Positions 47,401-53,389 of a stretch of DNA of 64,000 bases are shown here, in pieces. Source of the DNA: Tipula vernalis (taxonomy: Eukaryota; Arthropoda; Insecta; Diptera; Tipulidae); assembly GCA_958295665.1 (NCBI GenBank), contig OY282558.1:31827045-31891044 (forward strand), given 5' to 3'. The notes under the pieces are model-generated. The model did not search any database, was not told where the DNA came from, and was given only the letters and a program-made list of their open reading frames with translations. Within the stretch, counting starts at the first letter, position 1; each line of letters starts with the position of its first letter. The position numbers were made by a program, and so were the translations under genes.

Positions 47401-48074
47401 GTGGAGGTTGTTTTAAATGTGGTTCCAAAATCAAAAATTCAATTTGACTGGCTACATTAATACGTACAGCAATAACATCATAAATTGGATGGCATGCAAT
47501 GAGCTCGTTCGAAATTCAACTCTTTTAACTCATTTTATAATAAAATCGTTGTCAACTAGAGTCGTTGTGGTAGTACATCGAGGTGAAAATAGTTTGTTCG
47601 GAGCTTATAGGCGGGAGCATCCTGTTTGAAACTTGATCACTCAAATTCCGCGAGGATTGACTAGAACGGCTGGGATCCGAAATTTTACCTCAAGTATTAG
47701 GTTCGATGCTTGAATTATCCCAATTGAGTTCTATCACTTGGTTTTTTAAATATTATTCTGTTAATGCTTACTATAAGTCAAGCGAAAGGAAACCTGATTC
47801 AATGATGGGTAAATTTGTCATTTTGGGATTTCCACTAATTTACTGGATGAATAAAAAATGTTGTAATTTCTAAGCTTTAATTTATTAAAAATGTATAAAC
47901 ATTTTAAATATTTTTTAATTATATTTCTTTCTCTTTTACTTAAGAATAAATGAAAATGTTTTTGTTGCATAAGAAATGTTTCTTCTAGATTATTGTAGTC
48001 ACATTGGCCGCTGTATACTAAATTTATAATTTAAAAAAAAAAATTATAAATCAACACCAAATATTAATAACTAA

Positions 48075-49514
48075 TTAATAGTTAATTAATTTGGTGCTCT
48101 TTTTAAAGTTTATGTATTGATTTGTTTGATTTATGAGGCATAGCCCCACATATAAAATATTGTTCCCAGCATTCACATCTTTGTTCCAATTAATTTTACA
48201 TTGTGAACAGTACTGATAACGGTAAGGTGATTTTGAAGTTTTATTTTCTTTATAACATTTCGAGCACAATTTAGTTGTTCGAAATTCATCGATTCCTATT
48301 ACGTCGGCGTATTTTTTAAACGCCTTTAACAATTTGGGTTGTATCGTCCTAATATATCCTTTCATGGGAGAATTACTAGATTTTTGGTTGATCCAATTAT
48401 TATTAGAGCTTTTTGTGCAACTCCTCCGATAATTTCAATTGCCAATTTATTACATGCTTTTTCAATACAAATGAATTTTTTTAGTTTAAGTCTTGCAACT
48501 TTTCATCGTCCACATTCTGCTTGTCTTTTGTTAAAATTTGAAAGTTGATAATTTGTATATTCTAAATAATTTTTCGACATACGAGATATTTCCGGATTTT
48601 CGGTTGAATGGTCATTTATTTAATTTTTTTAATCTTGTATGAGCTCCTGTTAAATTTCGATAATAACTATTTTTAATTTTGATAGGTATTCCATTTCTTA
48701 TTCCACCAACAATTAATTTTAGACCCGGATCTAATCCAATTTTCACGTCGTAATTGTTTATGTTTCTCGTCTTATTTTGATTAGATTACCATTATAATGT
48801 TCATCATCTTTATTTGATGTTTTTTTGTTTTTATTATTAAACAATGCGCCTTGTTTGGTAATTAAAAATGATACAGAAACACCATCTGTTGAAATGGAAT
48901 AATCAAATTTTATGTTAACTGTTTCAGGAAAAATAAAATATTTTCTCCATTCTGTGTCTCTTTGAAATGTCCCCCATACGCCTTTAAATAATTTTTGAGA
49001 ACACAATAAATTATATAATGCTCTTGTGTCGTATTTAATATGGTGTAAACCAAATTAGTGAATGGGTATTAAATTAAAAATTTATATTGTTTTGCTCTTC
49101 ATTTTGTCTTTGTAATTTATAAAAAAATTGTAAATGTTTAAAATATCTTTTCGAATTTTTAATATCATCAAATTTTTCTCCATTCCAATATAATTTATTT
49201 TTTAATTCATTTAATAAATTTTCATTTGGTTTTTTTGACTATTTTTTGTAAATAAAAAATCCAAAGAATCATAATTGTTTTTTTCAAATTTATTAAAAAA
49301 TTTCGTACTCTTTTAGAAGCATGCATCCATATATTATTATGGAATATTGTTTCATAATGATTTGCCGCAAATGTGAATTGATTGGTTTTAAAGCACGAAT
49401 CATATAATTTTTTAAATTAATTCGTTTTTACAATTTGTTTTTAATCCACATTTTACTGTAACATTTATTTTTGGGGGGTTCGTTATTCCTCCCTTCGACT
49501 TTTCTTTTTGGCAT
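48075..49514 (-). pseudogene. Decayed Fanzor (eukaryotic TnpB-like RNA-guided nuclease)
   Basis: Minus strand, about 480 codons. A start MPKRKV (basic, nuclear-localisation-like) at 49514 sits just after a pyrimidine-rich TTTTAG acceptor. Then scraps such as NHYETIFHNNIWMHASKRVR; KLYWNGEKFDDIKNSKRYF; an open block 49006-48758 with EWRKYFIFPETVNIKFDYS and STDGVSVSFLI; the RuvC-I motif KIGLDPGLKLIVGG near 48731; ICIEKACNKLAIE near 48460; and an open block 48365-48075 with DVIGIDEFRTTKLCSKC, YCSQC and WNKDVNAGNNIL. The D to TT spacing is 151 codons, followed by a C4 zinc ribbon and a K/R-D-x-N-A motif, the arrangement known for TnpB and Fanzor. Several stops and at least two frameshifts show it is dead here. 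Fanzor1 versus Fanzor2 is not resolved. Confidence 0.82.
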
Positions 49515-49647
49515 TTGTATCTAAAAGACAAAAAAAAAAAATCATGTAATGGTTTTTTTTTGGGATGATATGTTTATTGACATAAAAAAACCAAATTAGT
49601 GTTTTTCATTAGCGAAAAGGATTAAAAAATTAAAAAAACGAACAAAA

Positions 49648-49862
49648 TTATAACGTGTCCCGACTGCCGATTCCGTTCTATTGCTGTCACTATACCCCCT
49701 AATTGTACCAAAAAAAAAAAATATTTGAACAAAGATAGGTATAATGAAAAAAGGCGATAGCTCGTCAATTGGCTCTATTCTTATACCCACTATCATGCCC
49801 ACCAATGTATCTGGTCAGGAGTTTCCGCAGCATGATTGTGTATATAAAAACATAGGATCAAG
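49648..49862 (+). repeat. Diverged direct repeat, copy 1 (5' side of the Fanzor remnant)
   Basis: Shares with 50142-50345, in the same order: GACTGCCGATTCCGTT, CACTATACCCCCTAATTGT, GCTCGTCAATTGGCTCT, ACCCAC-ATCAT-CCACCA, TTTGGTCAGGAGT-like text and a GATTGTGT...AAAAACAT end. About 490 bp separate the copies. No coding match is recognised; it looks like part of an interspersed element. Confidence 0.7.
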
Positions 49863-50141
49863 GTAATACATATATGTATTTCATTCCGACCCACAAATTT
49901 GTTTAAAAATTTCATGTTTTAAAGACTAAATGAAATATGTAATTAGTAACACCAGAAGCCAATAATCACATAATTTTAATTATTTATAAAACTAGGTTTA
50001 AATTTTACCATATATTAAAATTATTTTTAATTGTTATAATTAAAAAAATTAAATTAAATTTTGAAAAATATATTTTGATTTTAATTACGTATGGGACCTT
50101 AGAATTAATTAAGAAAAAAAAAAAAATAAATAATGTAAATG

Positions 50142-50345
50142 AGCACAGACTGCCGACTCCGTTTTATCACCATCACTATACCCCCTGATTGTCCCAATAA
50201 TGGGACACAGATAAATATAGCGAATACGAAGATAACTCGTCAGTCGGTTCTGTTTTTGCACCCACAATCATATCCACCAGTGCATTTGGTCAGGAGTATC
50301 AGCATCAAGATTGTGTGAAAGCAAAAACATGGCCAAGTATCAATT
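50142..50345 (+). repeat. Diverged direct repeat, copy 2
   Basis: Partner of the repeat at 49648. It contains GACTGCCGACTCCGTT, CACTATACCCCCTGATTGT, ACTCGTCAGTCGGTTCT, GTGCATTTGGTCAGGAGT and GATTGTGTGAAAGC, matching copy 1 with scattered substitutions and small indels. Confidence 0.7.
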
Positions 50346-50761
50346 TGCAAGATAAAAATAGTAATAAATTATTTAATATTAAAACTAAAACAAATTTTTA
50401 TTTAATTTTTTATTATCTAATAAATTTAATTATGCACATTATTTTAATATATTTTCACTGAGAAAAATGTGTATTGGACATACACAAATAAAATATAGAA
50501 AATTAAGGTTTAGGAGGTTTTACTAAATTTAAAAATATTTTCTCGATAGTATTAAGTGTGAAAAATATAAAGTGGAGTGTAAGGTTTAAAACTGGCAAAG
50601 AATAGGTGATTTAACAAGTTTTCGGAAGATGAAAATTTAATCCCAAAGAACAATGACAATGTGTTAAATACTATCCGAGCCATTAGTAATTGTGATGATA
50701 AAATTTAAGATAATATGTTTGTAAAACCAATGAAAATTATTTTTATTTTAAATTTTTATTG

Positions 50762-51642
50762 TGTCTCGTCTATATCACGTCTCGGAAGTGGTCTTAAAAT
50801 TTGTTCAAAAAATCCCAACGAATCTTATCCCTCACATTTTTATTAGAATCTTATTATAAATTTTTAGTCTTACTAGATTGAGAATAGCTTCCGCTTTCAA
50901 TTAAATCCCCGCAAGGATAAATCGAAACTCTGCCTTGGGCTAGGCAACTAATTATGTTCAATATTTTTATATAATTTCGAGGCAATGATAATGCTGCATC
51001 GTTCAATAAACCGAAATTGAACATTTGACTTGAAGCGTTGCAGTTTATAGAACACATAGCCAAACAGAATATAATTTACTGTGAGGAAATGAAATGTGTA
51101 CGTCATATTGATTGCCAATTGGACTCTGGAGAACTGTGTTATATCCAAATTAGTGTGTTTTGGCGTTAATTAGAAAATATAGAAACAAATTTTGTTATTA
51201 CATTAGCGAAAAAGATTAATTATGGTTGTTATTTCTTCCGTTAGTATCTCTTGCGGAAGAAATAAAAGATTGGGCGGCTGTAAAAATTACAACACTCAAG
51301 GTCAATGTTATATTTAAGTTTATTGAATGAGGCAGTATTTCGAGTTGTTGACAAATCAGTTGGCTCTCAATTTGCTCTTCCACGCAATAATGCTCCCATA
51401 CACAATAAGTATCATTGCCTCGAAATAATTAAAATTATTGAATATAATTAATTGCCAAGGGCAAGGCAGAGTTTCGATTTATACTTGCGGGTATTTTAAT
51501 GAAAGCGGAAGATATTCTCAATCTAGTAAGACCAAAAATTTATAATAAGATTCTAATAAAAAAGTGTGGGATAAGAGTCGATGCGATTTTTGGAACAAAT
51601 TCTTGGACCACTTCCGAGACGTGATATAGACGTAATAGAGAG
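50762..51642. repeat. Long inverted repeat, ~235-bp arms around ~410-bp spacer
   Basis: The left arm 50762-50998 and right arm 51408-51642 are reverse complements with modest divergence. Shared landmarks on the right arm: ATCATTGCCTCGAAAT, AAGGCAGAGTTTCGATTTAT, GAAAGCGGAAG, TTCTCAATCTAGTAAGAC, TTTATAATAAGATTCTAATA and CCACTTCCGAGACGTGATAT. Read from the tip, one arm could encode GRVSIYPCGDLIESGSYSQS, which I do not recognise. It is either two head-to-head copies of one element or a foldback element. Transcription through it would give a long double-stranded RNA. Confidence 0.8.
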
Positions 51643-52341: not shown

Positions 52342-53300
52342 TACCAATTAATTCGTTATGTTTTAAATTCAAAATAATTTGTTTATTCTAAATCAACTGT
52401 ATGAAGAATGAAGTATCTGGAAAAAATAAAGAGAAAAAATGTTTTATTAATTTTTTTAATTAGAATAAATAACACTAACAAAATCAATAACAAAATTATA
52501 AAAAGAATTAATAAAGGAAAATAATTTCTTCCTAATATGACTATTTTCTGTCTTTTTTTAAAAAAAATATTTAACAAATGATATTAATCAAAATCAATAA
52601 ACATTTAGAATATAATAATCTATTAATTAATAACATTTATTGTTTTACGATATGAACAAATATAATTGATTACCTATTCGAGCTTATGAGGCACATACAG
52701 TTTAAAAATATAAAAAAAAACATTTAAATTGGTTATAATTAATGTAGACAGACATACTGCATTTGCTTAAATTGTTATAAAATTATTTAAAAAAAAAATA
52801 ATAATAAACTTACCAATTAATTCGCTGTTTTAAATTTAAAATAATTTGTTTATTTTAATATATATTAAAATTCTATTATATTTAGCTTAATGAAACTAAA
52901 TATAACATTATTTTATTTGTAAACAAATATAATTATGTACGTATATAAATTTGAGAACGTAATACCGAATAGTTTAAAATTTCATGAATATGATTTAAAT
53001 TAATATTATAAATATCATGACTGGATATACATTGAACAAGGCAAGATCTAAGCGGAGCACAATCAGCAAATATAAAAAATAAATAAACATTTTAATGATT
53101 TGAACACAACTATAACTTAAATAAAACACGTGGTGGTATCAAAATTTATATATGGCGGGTATTTTATATAATTATATACGTAATTATAATTTGTTATTAC
53201 AACCAAAATTTTATTATATTTAGGTGCTTCAAACTAAATATAACATTATTTTCTTTGTAAAAAATATAATTACGTATATAAATTTGATAATATAATATCC
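52342..53300 (+). repeat. Nested direct repeats
   Basis: A ~50-bp unit beginning CTTACCAATTAATTCG and containing AAAATAATTTGTTTATT occurs at 52342 and again at 52811. A ~95-bp unit with ATTATATTTAG, AACTAAATATAACATTATTTT and ACGTATATAAATTTGA occurs at 52867-52965 and 53203-53300. The pattern suggests repeated local duplication of an AT-rich segment. No coding content was seen. Confidence 0.6.
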
Positions 53301-53389
53301 CCCATTAAAACAATTTATAAAAAAAAACATAATTAATTATTATACAAATATATAATAAATTCACCTGTACACGGCAGTCTAACTGAGTC

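Follow-up and report, generated by a model that had tools for sequence, protein, structure and literature searches.

A Fanzor1 fossil and its intact relatives in the genome of Tipula vernalis, with folded modules on both sides of the gene

The broken gene and its element

The window (the whole 64-kb stretch of Tipula vernalis DNA analyzed here) carries, on its minus strand, a degenerate Fanzor1 gene embedded in a larger element that has numerous sister copies in the same genome. The features are listed below in window coordinates.

48006..50423, minus strand: minimal Fanzor-carrying element common to the sister copies (limits of blastn homology; termini putative)
48011..48101, minus strand: two-hairpin module (SL1, SL2) just after the stop codon, candidate omega-RNA scaffold (minimum free energy, MFE; layout in other families)
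48075..49514, minus strand: degenerate Fanzor1 ORF, start to stop codon (motifs; 14 indels against the intact frame of the relative L019)
48078..48434, minus strand: open C-terminal piece with RuvC2, TNB zinc finger and RuvC3 (PF07282; match to the database protein P0003)
48255..48290, minus strand: DEFRTTKLCSKC, with the relocated Glu, TT and the first CxxC (Glu and Cys the same in all 11 relatives aligned)
48723..48737, minus strand: GLDPG, with the first catalytic Asp (RuvC1) and the Fanzor-type DPG (Asp invariant in 11 of 11)
48761..49054, minus strand: open middle piece with TDGVSVSF (similar to the intact relative L024)
49411..49414, minus strand: site of missing coding sequence, about 200 bases compared with sister copies (extra bases in L009, 3549 to 3758)
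49660..49860, minus strand: leader block, inner copy (covariance model R1, 171.8 bits, the copy being part of the model; z −3.07)
50146..50335, minus strand: leader block, outer copy (R1, 188.3 bits, the copy likewise being part of the model; z −3.69)

The preliminary description of this DNA had read a Fanzor fossil from a series of minus-strand motifs, and all of these are present in the claimed order when the strand is read in three frames. MPKRKV lies at the start codon (49514) in the first frame, TDGVSVSF (48889) is in a frame different from that of MPKRKV and GLDPG, and GLDPG (48737), DEFRTTKLCSKC (48290), YCSQC (48212) and KDVNAGNN (48182) return to the first frame. The distance from the catalytic Asp to the first Thr is indeed 151 codons in a single frame, but that frame is broken by seven intervening stops. 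The series GLDPG...DEFRTTKLCSKC...YCSQC...NKDVN fits the Fanzor1 motif D-X(125,275)-[TS][TS]-X-X-C4 zinc finger-X(5,50)-RD (PMC3627910), with KD in place of the RD that is kept in the relatives L019, L020, L022 and L024. The window gene also shows the two marks reported for Fanzors (PMC10711439): the DPG at RuvC1 and, six residues ahead of the four-Cys zinc finger, the Glu.

The 119-aa piece 48078–48434 matches the Pfam family PF07282 (Cas12f1-like_TNB) with 34 bits (E 3.4e-8; cut-off 26.3 bits). In single pairwise comparisons, the same piece shares 56% identity with the 543-aa P0003 over 93 aa (E 8e-37), and the piece 48761–49054 shares 58% with the intact in-genome Fanzor L024 over 95 aa (E 4e-38). 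Pfam yields no match above the cut-off for this middle piece and none for the third open piece, 49222–49416. The PF07282 score and the two identities imply that the motif series is not due to chance. Thus, the reading as a Fanzor fossil is borne out by the PF07282 match, the Fanzor forms of the motifs and the frame-breaking mutations, and the intact relatives tie the gene to Fanzor1.

The gene was killed by frameshifts, stops and a coding deletion of ~200 bp. Seven of the 14 indels relative to the L019 frame are not multiples of three. The deletion, of 202–208 bases, lies after window position 49414, near codon 25 of the L019 frame. Loss of an intron was considered as the cause of this 208-bp gap and rejected: the missing bases form an open coding frame in L009, so that the gap represents a deletion of coding sequence. 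Differences between the window copy and L009 amount to 0.127/0.106/0.235 at codon positions 1/2/3, with a similar pattern against L011 and a weaker third-position excess against L010 (0.119/0.099/0.157); the excess is absent in the pairs L009–L011 and L012–L013. The third-position excess indicates that purifying selection acted on the lineage until the gene died. No full-length open frame was seen in L009 to L014.

The element extends beyond the 48075–49514 span of the gene, with homology from ~48006 to 50379–50451. The right limit, 48006, is where the blastn homology with L009, L010 and L011 ends, and the left limit falls between 50379 and 50451 depending on the copy (L009, L013, L014, L022, L028, L042). 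The alignment of same-genome copies, which had been proposed as the way to define the ends, therefore gave homology limits but not the true termini of the window element. An AT-rich palindromic stretch at window positions 53163–53385, also found upstream of the Fanzor copies L013 and L023, may be a MITE or else mark a left end farther out. A foldback element with 210-nt arms that are 89% complementary and 446 nt apart occupies 50767–51632, a short way upstream of the Fanzor element.

Assignment to Fanzor1

The window gene is a Fanzor1 fossil, an assignment for which the profile and predicted-fold evidence comes from the relatives and not from the broken gene. A search of a 5.8-billion-protein database with L019 retrieved 16 proteins at E ≤0.001 among the best 7989 candidates, and 7 of the 16 are 47–50% identical to L019 over 84–88% of its length. 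In the alignment of 11 relatives, Asp, Glu, Asp and the four Cys are invariant. L019 alone has weak sequence matches in the PDB, the best being to Cas12f (E 0.008). The profile of 15 relatives matches SpuFz1 (8gkh; E 1.6e-22) and GtFz1 (9.2e-15), followed by mimivirus L79 (9b0l, titled Fanzor2; 2.9e-9) and LaTranC (7e-9), both of which rank ahead of any Cas12f. For the AlphaFold model of P0003 (mean pLDDT 84.7), a protein 50% identical to L019, the top seven hits in the PDB are structures of SpuFz, PpFz and GtFz (E 1.6e-18 to 4.6e-15, TM 0.60–0.74), with SpuFz the best by E (1.6e-18); next come Cas12f and TnpB (E 3e-7 or worse, TM ~0.3), and the TM to the mimivirus Fanzor2 is 0.26. The profile checks and the same-genome search proposed in the preliminary description, run in a closely similar form, both turned out in its favor: Pfam reports PF07282, the relatives' profile ranks Fanzor1 first in the PDB, and the genome yields at least 43 DNA matches from the 40 candidates scored among 99, intact copies among them.

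Relatives in the same genome

The genome comprises 1.27 Gb in 340 contigs, three of which span 371–464 Mb. Besides the matches found with the window copy, a protein search with L019 gives at least 76, from the 71 candidates scored among 465. The survival of intact relatives had been predicted, and 10 full-length open frames, each with the MPKRK start, were read in three families (L019, L020, L022, L024, L025, L026, L033, L034, L035, L036); six of the ten are copies of the C3 family, with partly similar flanks, and may include segmental duplicates. The intact relatives are ~67% identical to the window copy at the DNA level, and the coding parts are ~64–68% identical between the families that bear the leader block. 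Very recent intact copies (99.5% identical) coexist with decayed ones.

The L024 family consists of six copies of ~1.85 kb that are 97–99.5% identical, with the ends TCCCTTTC/GAAAGGGA adjoining TA. The right end, GAAAGGGA followed by TA, is found in 6 of the 6 copies; the left end, TA followed by TCCC, is exact in two of the five copies that keep it and one base off in the other three. These ends were weighed against the terminal inverted repeats and TA duplication of Tc1/mariner-like elements; no transposase frame was found in the L024 element among frames of at least 140 aa. The C3 family has TC...CTAG ends and a 3' hairpin and is perhaps Helitron-like; Helitrons start with TC, have a 3' hairpin ~10 nt before a CTRR end and insert between A and T. 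The C3 3' end, CTAG followed by T, is present in all five copies read (L017, L019, L020, L021, L030), with the second hairpin ~10 nt before it, and the 5' TC in three of three (L019, L020, L021), preceded by A in the two that share a flank. The C3 gene is a single open frame through the nuclease domains. After the nuclease domain, the 3' ends of L019, L021 and L017 contain an intron-like stretch (GTAAGTG...TTTATAG), and a 138-bp unit that includes it is repeated in some copies of this group; L022 and L028 repeat 189 and 141 bp, respectively, in the same region.

A tandem array at C2:301391867-301488479 (L015–L018) consists of 30 units, mostly 3226 bp apart. The units encode an N-terminally truncated Fanzor (matches start at residue 153–155 of L019), and 29 of the 30 have no stop in the matched part. 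In the stretches of the array that were read, a further frame directly precedes the Fanzor frame; the one that was scanned contains DUF1759 (PF03564, E 1.5e-19), which we take to be a BEL/Pao gag-type domain. By eye, a non-LTR element and a mariner-like gene break up the array.

Several other arrangements were observed. At L011 (2452–5162), a 5'-truncated Fanzor adjoins a helicase gene that looks SMARCAD1-like by eye, and part of the last coding stretch of that gene (LPNELILE...) is repeated after the Fanzor. At L010 (4870–5481), the first Fanzor is followed directly by a piece of a second, different one. An insect origin agrees with frames of chitin-binding, chitin-deacetylase-like and ionotropic-receptor-like type that were recognized by eye in the genome.

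The right end

Just after the stop codon, the window sequence 48011–48101 folds with an MFE of −23.6, compared with a shuffle mean of −8.95 (z −5.98). Ten right ends were folded, from the C3 family, L022, L028, L038, L024 and the window group, with z-scores from −2.58 (L024) to −5.98 (window). Nine of them form two hairpins (the second one imperfect in L014) and L012 forms one. The layout is alike across the families, and the letters differ widely between groups. The covariance model R2, built from nine right-end sequences of one group (the window group lies outside it), recognizes its own group and, with weak scores, the L024 family, which is outside the model, at the expected spot in six of six near-identical loci (E 0.01–0.04); because the palindrome is also matched on the reverse strand at E-values of this order, the support from L024 is modest. 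R2 finds no match in the window group. The notion that the module is a single sequence family was accordingly rejected, and what connects it to the window group is layout and position.

The omega-RNA of SpuFz1 and PpFz1 has the order SL1, SL2, guide (PMC11423790), and in Spizellomyces punctatus a 75-nt scaffold lies between the stop codon and the right end, with a guide of 14–15 nt beyond it (PMC10432273); the candidate scaffold described here occupies the same place. By analogy with this layout, the right-end hairpins are likely to be the omega-RNA scaffold.

The leader block

Upstream of the start codon, at 0.15–0.82 kb, the window contains two copies of a strongly folded block of ~190 nt. 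The fold of the L022 block has −85.7 kcal/mol, compared with −55.1 in shuffles (z −7.3). Identity to the L022 block is 86–92% in the window (outer copy), L009, L012 (outer, partial), L013 (outer) and L028, and 75–80% in the inner copies and L014. Hence the best block copies are 86–92% identical across families, compared with 64–68% for the coding parts of those pairs.

Applied to 12 copies of the block, RNAalifold does not recover the whole L022 fold; it gives 34 pairs (the second arm and a small hairpin), six of them with changes on both sides, and a covariation term of −1.09. A 71-pair structure was derived from L022, which is one of the 13 sequences it was then placed on and so favors a high pairing figure: 93.0% of the cells pair, compared with 35–56% when the structure is slid. 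Across these 13 copies, 10 pairs change on both sides (shuffle mean 5.7; 9 of 500 shuffles are as high), as do 19 cells (shuffle mean 7.9; none of 500), and 5 of 500 shuffles attain the covariation score; ‘further pair types' are not raised (495 of 500). Among the cells unlike L022, which are not independent since the copies are related, 48 are Watson-Crick, 62 G-U, 22 A-C and 36 other, and the excess of G-U over A-C fits folding of the sense strand. The corresponding counts in the first arm are 6, 16, 4 and 16; most of the support therefore comes from the second arm, and the first long arm, which rests on the L022-derived structure, is less well supported. Rfam reports no family at gathering score anywhere in the 64-kb window; in five block-bearing loci it gives five matches at E up to 5, none of them on the block. 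A narrow test, the exact 23-letter core pattern of the block against viral_contigs, gave no matches. The available parts of the open-licence literature describe no structured left block of a Fanzor, which is weak evidence of absence.

The genome search with the whole leader gave at least 50 matches, from the 40 candidates scored among 45, which were grouped into 39 places, some of which match only the leader parts outside the block. These places were compared with an incomplete list of 45 Fanzor places that leaves out the array. Among the leader matches scored, 17 of the 39 lie upstream of a Fanzor gene in the same sense. Sixteen, one of which is the window, are within 3 kb of a listed Fanzor, all upstream and on the same strand at 46–1141 bp, although as related copies they do not represent 16 independent events; at the 17th, L043, the Fanzor is 106 bp downstream of the leader. 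No Fanzor was found within ~2.2–2.45 kb downstream of the leader at L044 and L045. At C3:1764 kb, four block copies stand in tandem upstream of a Fanzor with a period of 288–294 bp. R1 finds no block in the C3, array and L024 loci examined. The block as a general Fanzor part was therefore rejected; with three families lacking it, the block is not needed for every Fanzor element.

Discussion

Fanzor1 is already known from insects, 13 families being listed for Mayetiola destructor (PMC3627910, Table 1), and from arthropods (PMC10432273); Fanzor1 guide RNAs of insect viruses have also been reported (PMC10711439). The Mayetiola elements (Bao and Jurka 2013, PMC3627910) resemble, by their description, those found here, being from an insect, with many families per genome and the same motif, but the available part of that description mentions no structured leader block. 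SpuFz1 (PMC10432273, 8gkh) shares the fold (TM 0.73 to P0003) and the catalytic residues at ~14% identity to P0003, whereas its element has inverted repeats of ~30 nt and, in the part of the source available, no mention of a structured left block. The Fanzor1 genes of Chlamydomonas Helitron2 (CRe-1 to 3, PMC3627910) are carried by a Helitron-like element with a 3' hairpin, as may be the case for the C3 family; they consist of multiple exons, in contrast to the single open frame between TC...CTAG ends in C3.

Three alternative explanations bear on different parts of this picture. The gene could be a TnpB- or Cas12f-like one of bacterial origin, brought in by contamination, a symbiont or recent transfer, as the Cas12f1 name of the Pfam zinc-finger model and the weak match of L019 alone to Cas12f might suggest. 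Yet the ~40 places outside the array are nearly all in the three contigs of 371–464 Mb, the gene has the DPG and the shifted Glu, and Fanzor1 comes first by fold and by profile with TnpB and Cas12f far behind, which makes a bacterial source extremely improbable. That the right-end hairpins act only as DNA signals of transposition, as at Helitron or IS200/605 ends, and not as an omega-RNA scaffold, is considerably less far-fetched but still quite improbable. The C3 family, with its second hairpin so close to the CTAG end that adjoins T and its TC left end, looks Helitron-like in just this way; the L024 family, however, has different ends beside TA and nevertheless carries two hairpins in the same place after the stop, and the two roles can coexist.

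The leader block might, in turn, be a small SINE- or MITE-like mobile element, unrelated to the genes and near them by chance. This is consistent with the 23 of the 39 leader matches for which the incomplete list has no Fanzor within 3 kb, with two of the three unlinked places that were fetched, where none follows within the downstream interval given above, and with the absence of the block from the examined loci of the C3, array and L024 families. It is at odds with the uniform placement of the 16 copies near listed Fanzors, all upstream and on the same strand, with the 17th such case at L043, and with the homology shared by the families, which begins 44–116 bp outside the block. On balance we consider a chance neighbor unlikely, albeit a more serious contender than the other two alternatives. 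Most likely, the block belongs to the left end of the element or to a 5' leader RNA; it may serve in left-end recognition, as a leader RNA or as a promoter unit. A bolder version, to which we give somewhat less than an even chance, is that a second conserved structured RNA sits at the left end of some insect Fanzor1 elements, sometimes in tandem, and works with the nuclease or in transposition; it may be, for example, an extra guide-like RNA, a regulatory RNA or a structure for RNA/ssDNA recognition at the left end. In that case a structured RNA would flank such an element on either side rather than on one only.

Taken as a whole, it is highly probable that the window contains a dead copy of a DNA element with Fanzor1 as its only recognized gene. 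The living copies would follow an RNA-guided scheme. In these, the gene would encode a RuvC/TNB nuclease, and the transcript through its 3' end would fold into the two hairpins of the omega-RNA scaffold, with the guide supplied by the sequence that directly follows the right end of the element. The complex would then cut matching DNA beside a short motif, e.g. at a vacated donor site, and such cutting would favor the keeping of the element. The second, larger folded module, doubled in the window copy, lies just upstream of the gene. Direct support exists for the family membership, the broken state, the intact relatives, and the layout and position of the two hairpins; the omega-RNA role of the hairpins, the use of a guide and the cutting are inferences.

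Few animal Fanzors are described in the open-access papers, to the extent that these were available. In the Tipula vernalis genome, intact, recent and decayed copies occur together, with differing ends, a similar right-end layout and a leader structure, and the 30-unit array of truncated Fanzors is a further oddity. The fossil adds a member to a known kind, and it is the leader block that most deserves further work. This genome makes it testable, in an insect, whether a Fanzor guards the donor site and what the second structured RNA would do.
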